DNA from: Paracoccaceae bacterium
Lineage (GTDB): Bacteria > Pseudomonadota > Alphaproteobacteria > Rhodobacterales > Rhodobacteraceae
DNA: 40,646 nucleotides
Assembly: GCA_029242355.1 (NCBI GenBank)
Contig: JAQWUC010000071.1
Span: 1-40,646, forward strand
Direction: 5' to 3'
Shown: piece by piece, positions 12,790 to 23,116 of the stretch
Position numbering within the stretch: the stretch's first letter is position 1
Layout: each line of letters starts with the position of its first letter
Notes under the pieces: generated by a model
The model's input: the letters and a program-made list of their open reading frames with translations, nothing else
Told to the model about the DNA's origin: nothing
Databases searched by the model: none
Program-made: the position numbers and the translations under genes

Positions 12790-13446
12790 CTATTTGTCCA
12801 AGGTTTTATCCGGCCCTGCAGGAAAAACCCCCGGCATGACAGTAAAATGGGGTATTCTTTTAAACCGGTCGCACCAACGTCTTATTGCAGGATAATTAAT
12901 TCTAGAGATTCCTCCTTCTTCTGATAAAATTATATAAGGAAAACACGCAATATCTGCAATGGTTGGATTTTTTGAATGACAAATCCAAGAATATCCCTGT
13001 TGCTCATTAAAATATAAATGCTCGTCAAGAACTCTAAATAGTTCATGGGCTCTTTTTCTGCATTCTTCGATTCGAATATCTGTATAAAAGAAACCATCAT
13101 GAAGCCTAGCGGCAGAAGATGTTGAAGTAAGATCATTTGCGAAGAAAAGCCATTCTGAAATTTGGGCAATCATTGCTGGATTACGTGTTGGATACCATCT
13201 TTTTTGCCTGTCATATTTTGCTGCTAGATAAATCAGTATGGCTTGCGCATCTCTAACTAATATATCTTGATCAGAGATAACTGGTAATTGGCCTAACGGA
13301 TTTATCTTAAAGAATTCTTGAGACTTATGTTGTTTTGAAGGATAAAATTCGATGAGTATTTGTTTATATGTAAGACCTAAAAACGCCAACATAAGGCGAA
13401 CTTTATAACAATTGCCAGATAATTCGTAATCATATAGTTTTAGCAT
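12790..13446 (-). CDS. Glutathione S-transferase family protein (positional candidate for an NdmE-like partner)
   Basis: Thioredoxin-fold N-terminus LYDYELSGNCYKVRLMLAFLG, NPLGQLPVI, C-terminal NPTIADIACFPYI; 8 nt from the Rieske-reductase gene. Confidence 0.88.
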   Translation of the reverse strand: MLKLYDYELSGNCYKVRLMLAFLGLTYKQILIEFYPSKQHKSQEFFKINPLGQLPVISDQDILVRDAQAILIYLAAKYDRQKRWYPTRNPAMIAQISEWLFFANDLTSTSSAARLHDGFFYTDIRIEECRKRAHELFRVLDEHLYFNEQQGYSWICHSKNPTIADIACFPYIILSEEGGISRINYPAIRRWCDRFKRIPHFTVMPGVFPAGPDKTLDK

Positions 13447-13454
13447 TTTCTATC

Positions 13455-15170
13455 CTAGATATCTAAAATTAATCTATCTGATTTTGCTCTGGAGACGCAT
13501 GTTAGTATCACCTTTCCTTTTCTTTTTTCTGATGAGTTCAGGTATACATCTTGATGATTAATATCACCTTCTAGGACGGATACTTTACATGTTCCGCACG
13601 CTCCTTGTTCACACGAACTTTCTAATTTTATACCGTTTTCAGTTAATACTTCAAGAATACTTTTTCCTGATGGCACGTTAAGACTAATCGCAGATCTGGC
13701 TAATTCTATTTGGAACGTTGAATCGTTATCAATTTTATTATTATTTTTAAAATACTCATATCTTAGGTTTGATTCGTTCCAACCAGAGTCATTTCCAATT
13801 TTGATCGTGTTTTCAATCATTTCTCCAGGTCCGCAAACATAAACCTTATTTAAAGGGCTCGGTGTTTCTAATATCTTTTCAATCTTGGACAGAGTTTGAT
13901 CAATCGTTAAATCAATATACGTATTTGTATTTTTACCTAGCTTATAAATTTCATTTTGAAATGCTGACAGATCTTGTGATTGAGTAAAGTAATGAAATTC
14001 AAAGCTTAGCTTCATTGAGTGCAAAGCTTTTGCCATTGATAGTAATGGCGTTATTCCAATTCCTCCAGCAACAAAAATAGTATGCTTTGAGTTTCTTAAA
14101 AGCGGGAAACTGTTATGTGGTGATGAAATTGCTATTACATCACCAATTGCAATATTTTCACCAATTGTCTTTGAACCACCTCCTCCATTTTTTTCTATTT
14201 TTACGGCAATGCAATAATGGTCTGTTTCTCCAGGTCCATTTGTAAGGGAGTATTGCCTGATTAATCCATTTTGGAGTTGTATATCGATATGGGCTCCCGC
14301 ATGGAATGTGGGGAGCTGTTCTTTGATACTTTTTAATTTTAGTTTGATAATATTATCTGAAATTCTTACTTTTTCAGTCACAGTAACTCGTAGATGAAAT
14401 CGTTGGTTTTGATTTCCATAAACTGGAATCTTTGAAAGTTGATCAGATACTTGTGAGATCTTTGGCTCCAGATCGGGCAATTGGGGACTATCCTGTTTTT
14501 CTAGTTTATCCCTTATCTCAACCATAATGGAGTTATAGTGCTTTAGGATTTTTATTTTCTCTGCACCTTCAATGTGTAAACTATAAATACCTCTCAAAAT
14601 TGAAATATTATTATTTTGAGGTTGGATGAAAAAACTTATTTGAGTACCAGATTCTAATTTAAATTGCCACGCGACGGTGCTTTTAGATTTTACGAATTGA
14701 TGTTTGGGTATCCCTACATTTGTAAGAAAATTTTCAATAGTTTTATATGAGCTATTTATTGGTATTGGGCGTAAAACAGTATACGATCCAAAACCTTCAA
14801 TTTCAGGAACTGTACCATCTGGCGTTTCACATGTCCAAATCATTCCATACTTTTCTTGGCTTTGATAAGTATTATTACAGATAGTTCGAGCAGGAGCATC
14901 AGCTGGGTGAGCAGGTATGTAAGTACAGCCAGCTGTTCGATTGGCATAACGCCAACCATGGTACTGACATTTTAACTCTGAACCTTCATTTATGCCTATT
15001 GAAAGTCTTACTCCTCTGTGAAGGCATCTATTTTCCCAAATATTTACGTGCCCATCATCGGCTCGCCAAATCGCATATTCTCTTCCGAGCAACTGTGCTT
15101 GAAATATATGCCTATAAGGTAAGTCAGAGGTACTAGCTACAGGAAACCATTTAGAAAATTCAATATCCAT
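13455..15170 (-). CDS. Rieske [2Fe-2S] + FNR-type reductase + plant-type ferredoxin fusion (NdmD-like electron-transfer component)
   Basis: Rieske ligands CLH-16aa-CQYH (residues 49-71); FMN/FNR motif RQYSLTNGP, GGIGITPLLSMA, VYVCGPGEM; C-terminal CEQGACGTC...LTC ferredoxin. Confidence 0.93.
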   Translation of the reverse strand: MDIEFSKWFPVASTSDLPYRHIFQAQLLGREYAIWRADDGHVNIWENRCLHRGVRLSIGINEGSELKCQYHGWRYANRTAGCTYIPAHPADAPARTICNNTYQSQEKYGMIWTCETPDGTVPEIEGFGSYTVLRPIPINSSYKTIENFLTNVGIPKHQFVKSKSTVAWQFKLESGTQISFFIQPQNNNISILRGIYSLHIEGAEKIKILKHYNSIMVEIRDKLEKQDSPQLPDLEPKISQVSDQLSKIPVYGNQNQRFHLRVTVTEKVRISDNIIKLKLKSIKEQLPTFHAGAHIDIQLQNGLIRQYSLTNGPGETDHYCIAVKIEKNGGGGSKTIGENIAIGDVIAISSPHNSFPLLRNSKHTIFVAGGIGITPLLSMAKALHSMKLSFEFHYFTQSQDLSAFQNEIYKLGKNTNTYIDLTIDQTLSKIEKILETPSPLNKVYVCGPGEMIENTIKIGNDSGWNESNLRYEYFKNNNKIDNDSTFQIELARSAISLNVPSGKSILEVLTENGIKLESSCEQGACGTCKVSVLEGDINHQDVYLNSSEKRKGKVILTCVSRAKSDRLILDI

Positions 15171-16064
15171 TCAAGTAAACCGAGAAAGATTAATGTCTTT
15201 GCTTGGTATTACACCATAAGTAAGTCCCTTTTGAGATAACCATCTTCTATATGCAATTGCGGATTTATCAGCACGAATTGGAGTTTCTGCTCGCGAATCC
15301 AACGGTAATTTTTTAGGAAGTTGATTTTCTAGTATAGGTTTATCTTGGCCAAATATTGTTTGTTGAAAAAGACGAATATCCGCATCAGCACTTTTGTCAT
15401 CGATTATGCACATTCCAGTGTGAGCTCGCACTTTTTCTGGCCCAACTGGTTGAACAAAAATCACTATAGCATCTTGTCGAGATTCATCAACAGGACTTGA
15501 TTTGTAGAGTATTGCGCAGTTAATATGTGGAACACGATATATGTACTCTACATCGGTACCTTCACTAGAAGCGACTGCTGCCTGAGGTTGATAGAATTGG
15601 CATTTGGTAGCTAATATTTCATCATCATTTTCAGAAATTGAAACGTCATATTCTTTAACTTCTGTATGAGGCTCCTCGCCTAGAATGCCCGTGTGTACGA
15701 ATGGAAAGTGCCCCATATCAAGGAAGTTTTCTATGGCTCTACCAGCAGAGATATTAACACCAAAAGCTCCTGTCGCTACATTTCTGCGATCAATTTCATA
15801 AAATTCTGGAAAAGAAAATAAATCAGGAGCTGGATGCCCTAGGGTAGTCCATAAATATCCATATTTTAATTTAGCTTGAAGTAACTTTTTTGATGGATCG
15901 GCACTTTTCCATATTAGAACTTCTTCATCAGAAATTTTATTAAATGAAAGGTCTTCTTCTAAAAGAATAGTATTTCCTTGTTCGTTGTTTTTTAAATCAT
16001 CAACAGAAGAAATAGGGTGCCATTGGTTTAAAATAACTTTATCTGTGCAAATTGTGGCGCCCAT
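15171..16064 (-). CDS. Rieske-type oxygenase catalytic (mononuclear non-heme iron) subunit lacking a Rieske cluster (NdmC-like)
   Basis: AIENFLDMGHFPFVHTG gives the D-x2-H-x4-H iron motif; FGQDKPILENQ candidate carboxylate segment; no CxH/CxxH pair anywhere; N-terminus NQWHPISSVDDL...YGYLWTTLG resembles a Rieske domain with the cluster loops missing. Confidence 0.88.
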   Translation of the reverse strand: MGATICTDKVILNQWHPISSVDDLKNNEQGNTILLEEDLSFNKISDEEVLIWKSADPSKKLLQAKLKYGYLWTTLGHPAPDLFSFPEFYEIDRRNVATGAFGVNISAGRAIENFLDMGHFPFVHTGILGEEPHTEVKEYDVSISENDDEILATKCQFYQPQAAVASSEGTDVEYIYRVPHINCAILYKSSPVDESRQDAIVIFVQPVGPEKVRAHTGMCIIDDKSADADIRLFQQTIFGQDKPILENQLPKKLPLDSRAETPIRADKSAIAYRRWLSQKGLTYGVIPSKDINLSRFT

Positions 16065-19771: not shown

Positions 19772-20920
19772 CTATATTTTAGCTTTTTGTTTTTTGGGAT
19801 CATAGAATGGTATCTGCACAATTTTAGCCTTTTCTTTTGAACCATCTATATGAACTTTTAGTGATGTGCCTATATGCGCAAAATTGATGTCAATCATTGC
19901 TAGGGCAATATTTTCTTTTAAGCGGGGTGAGTATACTGCAGACGTGACTTTCCCAACAATTTGTTCATCTATTTCAATTGACCAAAATTCTTTATTTGGC
20001 GAATTTAGTGGTTTGGTGTCAATAATCAGACCAATTTGCTTTTTGGAAATACCATTCAGTTTTATATTACTTAATGCCATTTTTCCAATGAACTTTGTCT
20101 TCATATCTAGATTTACAAGTCTTTCAAGGTTCATTTCAAATGGATTGTTTTCAGAGTTCATATCGGCATGATAAGATAACATTCCTCCTTCAATTCGACG
20201 GATGGTTGAAGTATGACCGGGTTTAAGACCAAATGGTTCGCCTGCTTTCATAATTATTTCCCAAAGTTTTGTGCCTTGTGAGCCATCACGTAGGAATATT
20301 TCGTAACCTAACTCACTGGACCATCCTGTTCGAGACACTATCAATGGTATTCCTTCATGGTTCAATTCTATAAACCAATAGTAACGTAGCTGTGATACGC
20401 TTTCTCCAAATAGCGCATTTATTATCTCTCTTGATTTGGGGCCCTGGAGTTGTAATGGCGAAACATCAGGTTCACAGATATTAATATTCATATTGGAATT
20501 TATAGCTATTCCTTTGACCCAAAGAAGAATATCGCTGTCAGCTAAGGATAGCCAAAAATGGTTTTTGCCAAGTCTTAACAAAACTGGATCGTTTAAAATC
20601 CCGCCATTGTTGTCGGTAAGTATAATATATTTGCATTGACCGACGGCGCATTGGGAAATATCTCGCGGAGTTAAAAATTGTACAAATTTTTCTGCGTCTG
20701 GCCCTGTTATTTCTACCTGTCTTTCTACTGAAACATCACAAAGTATTGCTTTATTGATAAGGTTCCAAAAGTTTTCCTCCGGGTCTCCAAAATCACGAGG
20801 GATATACATGTGATTGTAAACAGAAAAGTCTTTAGCTCCCCACTGGACGGTCGCTTTAAAAAATGGAGATTTTCTGATCTGAGTGCCAAATCCAAAATCG
20901 TTTTTGTTCTTGTTTTTCAA
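19772..20920 (-). CDS. GcvT-superfamily aminomethyltransferase, dimethylsulfoniopropionate demethylase (DmdA)-like
   Basis: IRKSPFFKATVQWGAKDFSVYNHMYIP, CDVSVERQVEITGPDA, LNDPVLLRL, RTGWSSELGYEIFL, RRIEGGMLSYHADMNSENNPFEM, AVYSPRLKENIALAMI; true DmdA versus sister clade not resolved. Confidence 0.78.
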   Translation of the reverse strand: MKNKNKNDFGFGTQIRKSPFFKATVQWGAKDFSVYNHMYIPRDFGDPEENFWNLINKAILCDVSVERQVEITGPDAEKFVQFLTPRDISQCAVGQCKYIILTDNNGGILNDPVLLRLGKNHFWLSLADSDILLWVKGIAINSNMNINICEPDVSPLQLQGPKSREIINALFGESVSQLRYYWFIELNHEGIPLIVSRTGWSSELGYEIFLRDGSQGTKLWEIIMKAGEPFGLKPGHTSTIRRIEGGMLSYHADMNSENNPFEMNLERLVNLDMKTKFIGKMALSNIKLNGISKKQIGLIIDTKPLNSPNKEFWSIEIDEQIVGKVTSAVYSPRLKENIALAMIDINFAHIGTSLKVHIDGSKEKAKIVQIPFYDPKKQKAKI

Positions 20921-20968
20921 AATTTATCCAATCGTTTGTAATTAAGTCTGAGAGGACATCTCATCTTT

Positions 20969-21304
20969 TTATCGACCAAAGCCAGCGCTGATAAATGGAT
21001 TTTGGTATAACTGACCATGTGACTCAACTCCATCTTGAATGATACAGTCTTCGGTTGGTCTTGCTACACATAGAAGTATGTAACCCTCTTGTGATTGTCT
21101 TTTATTTATAGCTGTAGCTCCTGGTTGCTTTACTTTACCTGAAACTAGTTTCGCAGCGCACGTGATACAACCTCCATAGTTGCAGCCTATCGGCAATTGA
21201 ATTCCCTTTTCGAGAGCAGCTTCATAAATTGATTGATTATACTTAACGTCGATTTCAATATTGCTGTTTAATAATTTTACTTTGTATGAACTAATTTTAG
21301 GCAT
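20969..21304 (-). CDS. Plant-type [2Fe-2S] ferredoxin
   Basis: GCNYGGCITCAAKL...LLCVARP (C-x4-C-x2-C...C); ATG at 21304 overlaps the upstream stop by 1 nt (TGATG). Confidence 0.92.
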   Translation of the reverse strand: MPKISSYKVKLLNSNIEIDVKYNQSIYEAALEKGIQLPIGCNYGGCITCAAKLVSGKVKQPGATAINKRQSQEGYILLCVARPTEDCIIQDGVESHGQLYQNPFISAGFGR

Positions 21305-21753
21305 CAAATTCCTAAATTTAATTTAGGTTTCCAAAAAGGTCGAAATAATTCAATTTTTGGGCATCTGTCCATAACAACCTTTAAGCCTGCATCTTCCGCT
21401 AATTTTGCTGCTTTTTCATCGAACACACCAATCTGTGCCCATAAAACTTTTGCGCCTACATTTATTGCGTCGTTCGCAATATTATAAAGTGCATTTGAAT
21501 TTCGAAAAACTTGAACCATATCAATTGGCCCATCAATCTTTTTGATTGATGAAAAAACTTTAATACCTCTTATTTCATCTAATCCGGGTCGCGGATTTAT
21601 AGGCATCATGTTGAAACCTTGCTCGTGTAAAACGCGAAGGACCCCATAGCTAAATTTTGTAGGATCTGGACTTGCTCCAACCATTGCAATGTTTTTCACT
21701 GAGGCGAGTATTTCAGATAAATAGTTTTCCGGATATGGTTGATTGTGATTCAT
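21304..21753 (-). CDS. CoA-binding domain protein (YccU/succinyl-CoA synthetase-like Rossmann fold)
   Basis: IAMVGASPDPTKFSYGVLRVL, INPRPGLDEIRG, VLWAQIGVFDEKAAKLAEDAGLKVVMDRCPKIE. Confidence 0.92.
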   Translation of the reverse strand: MNHNQPYPENYLSEILASVKNIAMVGASPDPTKFSYGVLRVLHEQGFNMMPINPRPGLDEIRGIKVFSSIKKIDGPIDMVQVFRNSNALYNIANDAINVGAKVLWAQIGVFDEKAAKLAEDAGLKVVMDRCPKIELFRPFWKPKLNLGI

Positions 21754-21763
21754 AATTTTTCTC

Positions 21764-23116
21764 CTAAATCCAAATATCAGACGTACAATCACCGCCTGGG
21801 TACCGAGTTTCGTGGCATCGTGATGGACCATTGGGTTCTTTTCCAAAATCAACTATAAAGTCAGGATTTATTTTCATTCCGCCGATATCAGTGTTACAGT
21901 CAACCATAATCATTACGCCACCCTTATGTCGTATCTCGGGGTAAAATTGATTATCCCAAGTTGAAAAAAGTGATGTTGTGACATAAAGGCGTTTGCCATC
22001 GAGCGACAACTGTATCATTTGAGGTCCGCCAGCTATCTCAACACCATTAACTATAGGCGCTTTTTCCAACATTCCTCCCATCCACACTTGTCCTGTTAAA
22101 ACAGGATTATGAGGATCAGAAATATCGTATTGCCTTAGGTCGCCATGAAGCCAGTTAGATAGGTAAAGGTATTTGTCATCCATAGATAGAAGAATTACTG
22201 TGATTAGGCCTGGAAGAGGAATTGGCCACTCAGGGTGTCGCTCATTTTCAACATCAATTATTTTCTTTACAATCCATTCATTTCCTTCTTTGTACCAATG
22301 AATAATGTTTGATGACATCGCTGCACCAACAAAACCATGGCTTGAGTCCGGATTATGGTGAAATCGAACCTCAAGAGGAACAAGACCATCTTCTCCTAAA
22401 TAGTGTGTTTTGATAACTTTCTTTTCTTTAAAGTTCCAAAAATGTATTTCCCTTCCATATTTTAATAACCCCACCTCTTCCAAATCAAAGCCAGGCATAA
22501 AAGTATTAGGAGCGGCCCATTCGCTTGAAACCATAACGTTATGGCGTGGCTGATACCAAAAATCATAATTAAATTTCATCCCACCAAGATCGTTTTCCCA
22601 TCGGCCTAGTATTTCAAAATCTTTGTTTAAGTGAAGAAAGCCACCCGGGGCGTTTCCTTTTGCATCGCCAAGCATTGATATTATGATTTCAGACCCTAAG
22701 CAATGGACAGTATGTGGAGCTGATAAATTTGTTTTTCTTTTGATTTCTTCTCCTGAAATAACTTTAGAAATTCTTGGTTCTCTCGGATTTGTTGCACAGT
22801 CAATTATGTGTATGTTGGAGGACCGAACACCTGGAACAATTAAGTATTTTCTCTCCATACTTTCATCATCAAAGCAAGATGAGCAAGCATTCCAGCCCAT
22901 ATGATGTAATTCGTCACCGACACTAGGCATTTCACAGCGGTTTATAACTTGTGAAAAAGTTTTACTTTTAGGATCTGCGTCAACCGTTGCTAAATAATCG
23001 GGCTCTTGAATTCCTGTTCCAACATAGATAGCAATTGTGTAAAGTAGCTTTTCTCTAGGAGCTTGCATTGCATCCATTGGCGATGCGTAACCTGGCCCAC
23101 AACAGCTTTTATTCAT
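21764..23116 (-). CDS. mtoX: Selenium-binding protein SBP56 family / methanethiol oxidase homologue
   Basis: SCCGPGYASPMDAM..PREKLLY, DELHHMGWNACSSC, LSAPHTVHCLG, FHHNPDSSHGFVGAAMSSNI, GDLRQYDISDP, YPGGDCTSDIWI C-terminus. Confidence 0.9.
   Translation of the reverse strand: MNKSCCGPGYASPMDAMQAPREKLLYTIAIYVGTGIQEPDYLATVDADPKSKTFSQVINRCEMPSVGDELHHMGWNACSSCFDDESMERKYLIVPGVRSSNIHIIDCATNPREPRISKVISGEEIKRKTNLSAPHTVHCLGSEIIISMLGDAKGNAPGGFLHLNKDFEILGRWENDLGGMKFNYDFWYQPRHNVMVSSEWAAPNTFMPGFDLEEVGLLKYGREIHFWNFKEKKVIKTHYLGEDGLVPLEVRFHHNPDSSHGFVGAAMSSNIIHWYKEGNEWIVKKIIDVENERHPEWPIPLPGLITVILLSMDDKYLYLSNWLHGDLRQYDISDPHNPVLTGQVWMGGMLEKAPIVNGVEIAGGPQMIQLSLDGKRLYVTTSLFSTWDNQFYPEIRHKGGVMIMVDCNTDIGGMKINPDFIVDFGKEPNGPSRCHETRYPGGDCTSDIWI

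Follow-up and report, generated by a model that had tools for sequence, protein, structure and literature searches.

Reciprocal domain remnants in the two chains of a putative NdmCDE-type split Rieske oxygenase from a Paracoccaceae bacterium

Analysis of contig JAQWUC010000071.1 of a Paracoccaceae bacterium (assembly GCA_029242355.1), taken over a stretch of 40,646 nucleotides (the window), indicated that three adjacent genes, designated here C, D and E, encode a putative split Rieske oxygenase of the NdmCDE type, in which each of the two oxygenase chains retains a remnant of the domain that works in the other. The best explanation of the whole, to which we give a probability of roughly 0.7, is that an NdmCDE-type oxygenase arose by duplication and complementary loss, that the remnants act as folding and assembly surfaces and that electrons pass from D to C. 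The split arrangement itself is already known as NdmCDE, and the contribution made here is an evolutionary explanation for a known type of enzyme, not a new type. The original prediction, drawn by eye from the sequence of the window, was largely right and is now better founded, with one of its motif pairs dropped.

The three genes lie on the reverse strand. Gene C (15171-16064, 297 aa) codes for an NdmC-like catalytic (mononuclear iron) subunit, recognised by its iron-ligand residues and by a Pfam match to the vanillate-demethylase-type catalytic domain VanA_C; no Rieske domain was found in it by Pfam. The stop codon TGA of C occupies positions 15171-15173 and the ATG of D follows directly, in frame. 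Gene D (13455-15170, 571 aa) codes for an NdmD-like Rieske-reductase fusion in which Pfam located a Rieske domain at residues 7-89 (PF00355, expectation value (E) 2.6e-17), an FNR-type region at 262-468 and Fer2 at 490-563; residues 120-256 (approximately) gave no Pfam match. The working Rieske [2Fe-2S] domain is assigned to D residues 1-120 (14811-15170), and residues 259-571 (13458-14396) are assigned to a flavin mononucleotide (FMN)/nicotinamide adenine dinucleotide (NAD) reductase joined to a plant-type ferredoxin (Pfam Fer2 and FAD_binding_6). The reductase part matched phthalate dioxygenase reductase 2pia (E 2.5e-56) and the ferredoxin part matched NdmD chain 6icm_D in the PDB (E 2.9e-20), a comparison that covers the ferredoxin part of NdmD. 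Directly downstream of D lies E (12790-13446, 218 aa), which codes for an NdmE-like protein resembling glutathione-S-transferase (GST) by its Pfam matches and has a homologue in 63 of the 64 D-bearing loci. The three features that characterise NdmCDE, a Rieske-less iron subunit, a Rieske-reductase fusion and an adjacent GST-like gene, are thus all present, while the two metal sites that a canonical alpha subunit carries on a single chain are found here on C and D jointly.

One search with the alignment of C, covering 84,980 species genomes, yielded 79 loci, distributed among Paracoccaceae, Rhizobiales, Rhodospirillales, Granulosicoccaceae, Acidimicrobiia, Pseudonocardia and Streptomyces. With plasmid loci and those of relatives included, the loci (designated L) contained 68 fused D and 126 C proteins. 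Also present were 13 full-length oxygenases and 9 standalone Rieske proteins, the latter about 215 aa long; metal-binding motifs were counted in 127 C and 69 D proteins. The iron-site residues Asn113, Asp116, His124 and Asp241 of C are present in 127/127 C proteins and His119 in 126/127, and the Rieske motif CxH...CxxH occurs in none of the 127. The Rieske motif is present in all 69 D proteins, none of which carries the iron-ligand motif D..H....H in the region between the Rieske and reductase parts (the mid region, residues 122-230, 14481-14807). In every D protein a hydrophobic residue (60 Leu, 4 Ile, 3 Val, 1 Phe and 1 Met) occupies the alignment position of Asp241, which is the third iron ligand in C.

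Comparison of profiles with HHalign indicated that residues 1-76 of C (15837-16064) are what is left of a Rieske domain after deletion of the cluster-binding loops, followed by the working catalytic domain at residues 77-285 (15210-15836). C 1-76 aligned with the Rieske profile of D at a score of 71.3 (null 11.3+-2.6), and C 55-90 aligned with D 95-135 at 35.1 (null 8.6+-2.3); in both comparisons 0/100 shuffles scored as well. C could be aligned end to end with full-length oxygenases (E 3e-64), a gap falling where the cluster is bound. The proposed alignment of the C N-terminus with the Rieske domain of D, cluster loops missing, is upheld on both flanks; the interval proposed for the pair of remnants, 14421-15719, misses the one in C.

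The catalytic-domain remnant in D is shorter. Comparison of D 122-256 with C profiles gave an ungapped match of 52 columns (E 1.1e-5), in which D 176-227 (14490-14645) corresponds to C 198-249; the matched stretch reads FFIQPQNNNISILRGIYSL in D and IFVQPVGPEKVRAHTGMCI in C. This match scored 40.5, and the maximum among 300 column shuffles was 25.4 (mean 13.9, standard deviation 2.9; 0/300 as good). It bears out one of the two correspondences seen by eye, ISFFIQPQNNNISILRGIY / VIFVQPVGPEKVRAHTGM. A test by segments placed the signal in D 170-230 against the C-terminal part of the catalytic domain (39.2 vs 11.2+-2.3). When the mid region was compared with 40 family profiles built from the same loci, its own family scored 253, the C family 42.4 and the next family 17.7, so that C outranked 38 unrelated families. 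Against full-length oxygenases D 1-256 aligned as one collinear chain, residues 4-228 falling on 19-304 (E 5e-34) with a gap of about 65 central catalytic-domain residues that include the iron ligands. The D profile also put the 176-227 stretch in register on the solved structures of SxtT, SxtDIOX and NdmA, weakly in each. The other pair, YKTIENFL / RAIENFLDM, did not hold: D 122-165 against C was at or near chance (shuffles as good 4/100 in register and 49/100 against all of C), the E, N and F of 'IENFL' vary across the D family, and the pair is at most a positional correspondence. The remnant amounts to about 80-100 of some 220 catalytic-domain residues and therefore cannot form a complete helix-grip fold. 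The mid region is also present in proteins near NdmD encoded on plasmids of P. fulva (L027) and Klebsiella (L028), which, as far as these proteins go, answers the proposal that NdmD homologues be checked for a vestigial domain.

The homologous segments overlap between the two chains, C 11-54 with D 4-47 and C 198-249 with D 176-227, and a single fission is insufficient because of this overlap. Under simple fission, an alpha gene would have broken and its Rieske part would have become attached to a reductase, with the mid region serving as a linker or docking module of unrelated origin. The lack of a Pfam match (among 43 mid regions no family was matched by more than one member) and the first half without significant similarity to C are in line with it. 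Set against these, C keeps the start and the end of a Rieske domain and D keeps catalytic-domain sequence. In addition, the standalone Rieske proteins of Rhizobium and of several genomes of the window's family are not fused to a reductase and nevertheless keep a homologue of the mid region (whole chain against D, E 3e-48; mid against mid, E 5e-9, 0/100 shuffles as good), which argues that the mid region is not a mere linker, as these proteins have no reductase to link. We regard simple fission as improbable.

When the Rieske and catalytic domains were each given a tree of their own, three full-length groups (L105/L102, L022/L023 and L106/L111) came out nearest to the split proteins in both (Shimodaira-Hasegawa support 0.92 and 0.999), set apart from the other sampled oxygenases. 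These placements, together with SxtT and SxtDIOX being the best solved oxygenase relatives of both chains, make it unlikely that the Rieske and mid regions of D came from another Rieske oxygenase than C and were combined with it later. Such an origin from two alpha lineages gains something from the long branches between split and full-length proteins and from several weak deep nodes, and shuffling of Rieske domains between systems is common. No degenerate full-length intermediate was found, as the nearest full-length relatives (L105, L106, L111 and L022) have both motifs intact.

Duplication of an alpha gene followed by complementary loss, as first proposed, is the simplest reading of these comparisons and fits them best; the overlapping segments and the tree placement favour it, and the part that did not stand is the failed motif pair in D and with it the completeness of the remnant. 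We infer the order of events as follows. The duplicated gene would have coded for a complete alpha subunit, from the subfamily closest to SxtT and to the full-length proteins of L105, L111 and L022. In one copy, C, the iron site would have been kept and the portion of the Rieske domain that binds the cluster lost; the other copy would have kept the Rieske domain and lost the middle and the end of the catalytic domain with all iron ligands. The Rieske-keeping copy would, in this lineage, have been joined to the FMN/NADH/ferredoxin reductase to give D. Several points weigh against this explanation. The significant match between the D remnant and C is limited to about 52 columns and leaves out residues 122-165, and the mid profile alone gave one chance match against the PDB and no Rieske oxygenase. 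The mid region of the standalone Rieske proteins compared directly with C is at chance (14.2 vs 11.7+-2.2), and the comparisons do not distinguish duplication of a single gene from recruitment of two alpha genes that were already related. The evidence on the substrate is indirect: the purine-type transporter found beside 40 of the 79 relatives is absent beside this locus, the BMP-type transporter of this genome being unlinked.

In C as in D, the remnant diverges more rapidly than the working domain. Mean pairwise identity over 68 loci is 74% for the Rieske domain of D and 69% for the catalytic domain of C, and 41% for both the mid region of D and the remnant of C. Between the window and the sister species (G001) nonsynonymous divergence (dN) is 0.075 for the D Rieske domain, 0.35 for the D mid region, 0.29 for the C remnant and 0.073 for the C catalytic domain, at a synonymous divergence (dS) of about 1.5, near or beyond saturation. 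The remnants still look constrained, with this caveat of dS saturation. Their several-fold faster evolution and the shorter mid region of the Devosia lineage would suit neutral leftovers that decay slowly without a function. We consider this improbable, since dN values of 0.35 and 0.29 against a dS of about 1.5 point to purifying selection, though dS is near saturation, since the remnants are kept from Alphaproteobacteria to Actinomycetota and since near-invariant positions persist in the mid region, among them Q183, P184, R193, L209, R220 and E224. The full set of such positions is L133, R134, L149, Q183, P184, D186, R193, L209, R220 and E224, the window having N186.

Electron transfer in Rieske oxygenases is between subunits, the Rieske cluster on one reducing the iron site on the next. 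In CntA the distance is 12.2 A across the subunit boundary and 44 A within a subunit (PMC7948474), and transfer runs through a conserved bridging acid (PMC12445004). The characterised oxygenases are C3-symmetric (PMC12445004), NdmCDE has a 3:3:3 composition of about 360 kDa and NdmC alone is insoluble (PMC10380055). Two kinds of subunit cannot alternate strictly around a ring of three, an odd number, so the complex would have to be either a trimer of C.D pairs or a ring of six; three C.D pairs with C3 symmetry appear most likely. The assembly, the electron path, the substrate and the role of the remnants as assembly surfaces are what we infer from these comparisons. All Rieske centres would be on D and all iron centres on C; electrons would pass from NADH through FMN and ferredoxin to the Rieske cluster, all on D, and then cross the C-D interface via Asp116 to the iron of C. 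There O2 would be activated and a small substrate oxidised, probably by N-demethylation. E would hold the complex together, and both remnants may have been kept as folding and assembly surfaces that allow C and D to pack as adjacent alpha subunits do.

NdmCDE removes the N7-methyl group of 7-methylxanthine in caffeine-degrading Pseudomonas, with the Rieske domain on the reductase and a GST-like protein required, and homologues in Sinorhizobium and Mesorhizobium were noted previously (PMC4408171). The window genes resemble those of Pseudomonas putida CBB5 in the Rieske-less catalytic subunit, the Rieske-FMN/NADH/ferredoxin fusion, the GST-like subunit and their adjacency. They differ in that the host is an AT-rich Paracoccaceae relative without caffeine or purine genes beside C-D-E and in that the ferredoxin part of D is distant from NdmD (E 2.9e-20 vs 3e-33 for L027). 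The standalone-Rieske variants of Rhizobium and of the window's family (L025, L030 and L007) share C, a GST and a Rieske protein whose mid region is homologous, but their Rieske protein of about 215 aa is unfused and the reductase must come from elsewhere. SxtT/SxtDIOX, NdmA, NdmB and CntA have the same two domains and iron ligands, and one part of SxtT/SxtDIOX and of NdmA aligns with C and one part with D; in contrast to the window system, both metal sites of these enzymes are on one polypeptide, in alpha3 or alpha3alpha'3 assemblies. A further parallel, taken from the literature, is the chlorophyllide a oxygenase of Micromonas (MpCAO), one Rieske oxygenase on two chains. Kunugi et al. (2013) reportedly found its Rieske motif on one chain and its mononuclear iron motif on the other. 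We know of no fused reductase or GST-like subunit in MpCAO, which differs further in being eukaryotic and acting on chlorophyllide. A trimer of dimers was proposed for it (PMC9615114).

NdmCDE has been described as an oddity with a split-off Rieske domain. The matching remnants, which span Alpha- and Gammaproteobacteria and Actinomycetota in both chains, would recast its origin as duplication and complementary loss; such loss would explain the mutual folding dependence of C and D. They also offer a testable account in which obligate electron transfer between subunits lets one type of subunit become two.

At least two C genes are present in 22 of the 64 D-bearing loci (for example L029, 6162-7973, and L038, L040 and L056), and the C genes of these loci are old paralogues that share one D, because the upstream C forms a clade of its own. 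Solitary C genes with no D nearby were found in L100, L096, L097 and L105, and complete C-D-E sets are present elsewhere in the same assemblies (L040, L103, L102 and L091). This suggests that D may serve solitary C proteins in trans. More speculatively, and with somewhat less than even confidence, split Rieske oxygenases in general may arise when two chains each lose the domain that the other keeps, and may work as a hub, in which one Rieske or Rieske-reductase chain, with its catalytic remnant as assembly surface, feeds several interchangeable C subunits in a heteromeric ring. If true, an arrangement of one Rieske chain and many catalytic subunits would be useful for engineering oxygenases on a shared electron supply.

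Other arrangements of C were also observed. In L135 and L136, from the window's family, two divergent C genes flank one standalone Rieske and GST pair, and on pSymA of S. meliloti 1021 (L024, 1799-2869) an extra C paralogue, 50% identical to C, lies about 5 kb upstream of C-C-D-E. In Acidimicrobiia (L111, 6344-8888; L106, 1133-3074) the gene immediately downstream of C codes for a full-length Rieske oxygenase in which both metal motifs are intact, and the two proteins could possibly form a mixed assembly. On P. putida plasmid pPp1290 (L133, 9859-11614) D is disrupted and annotated as three reading frames, one each for the Rieske, reductase and ferredoxin parts, next to a shortened C, and related plasmids have intact copies. 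Two IMG/VR viral contigs (L022, 1947-2903; L023, 4683-5639) carry a full-length Rieske oxygenase of 319 aa that is among the nearest full-length relatives of C.

A BMP-type (nucleoside/purine-class) ATP-binding cassette substrate-binding protein is encoded in the locus of 40 of the 79 relatives, and guanine-deaminase-like or NCS2 genes occur in the loci of a few. Methylated purines are therefore likely substrates for much of the family, as judged from gene content. In the window no caffeine or purine genes were found in the neighbourhood of C-D-E, and xanthine dehydrogenase had no match in this genome, which is 61% complete. The neighbours in the window resemble DMSP (dimethylsulfoniopropionate) demethylase, methanethiol oxidase, MttB, aldehyde dehydrogenase and class V aminotransferase. 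Four genes lie in a row at 19772-23116, coding for a DMSP-demethylase-like GcvT protein, a small 2Fe-2S ferredoxin, a coenzyme A-binding protein and a methanethiol-oxidase-like protein; their scores are below the NCBIfam cut-offs and their functions are uncertain. Beyond C-D-E, the tested neighbours recur in no other genus except for one M20 match, and in the sister species the neighbourhood is syntenic.
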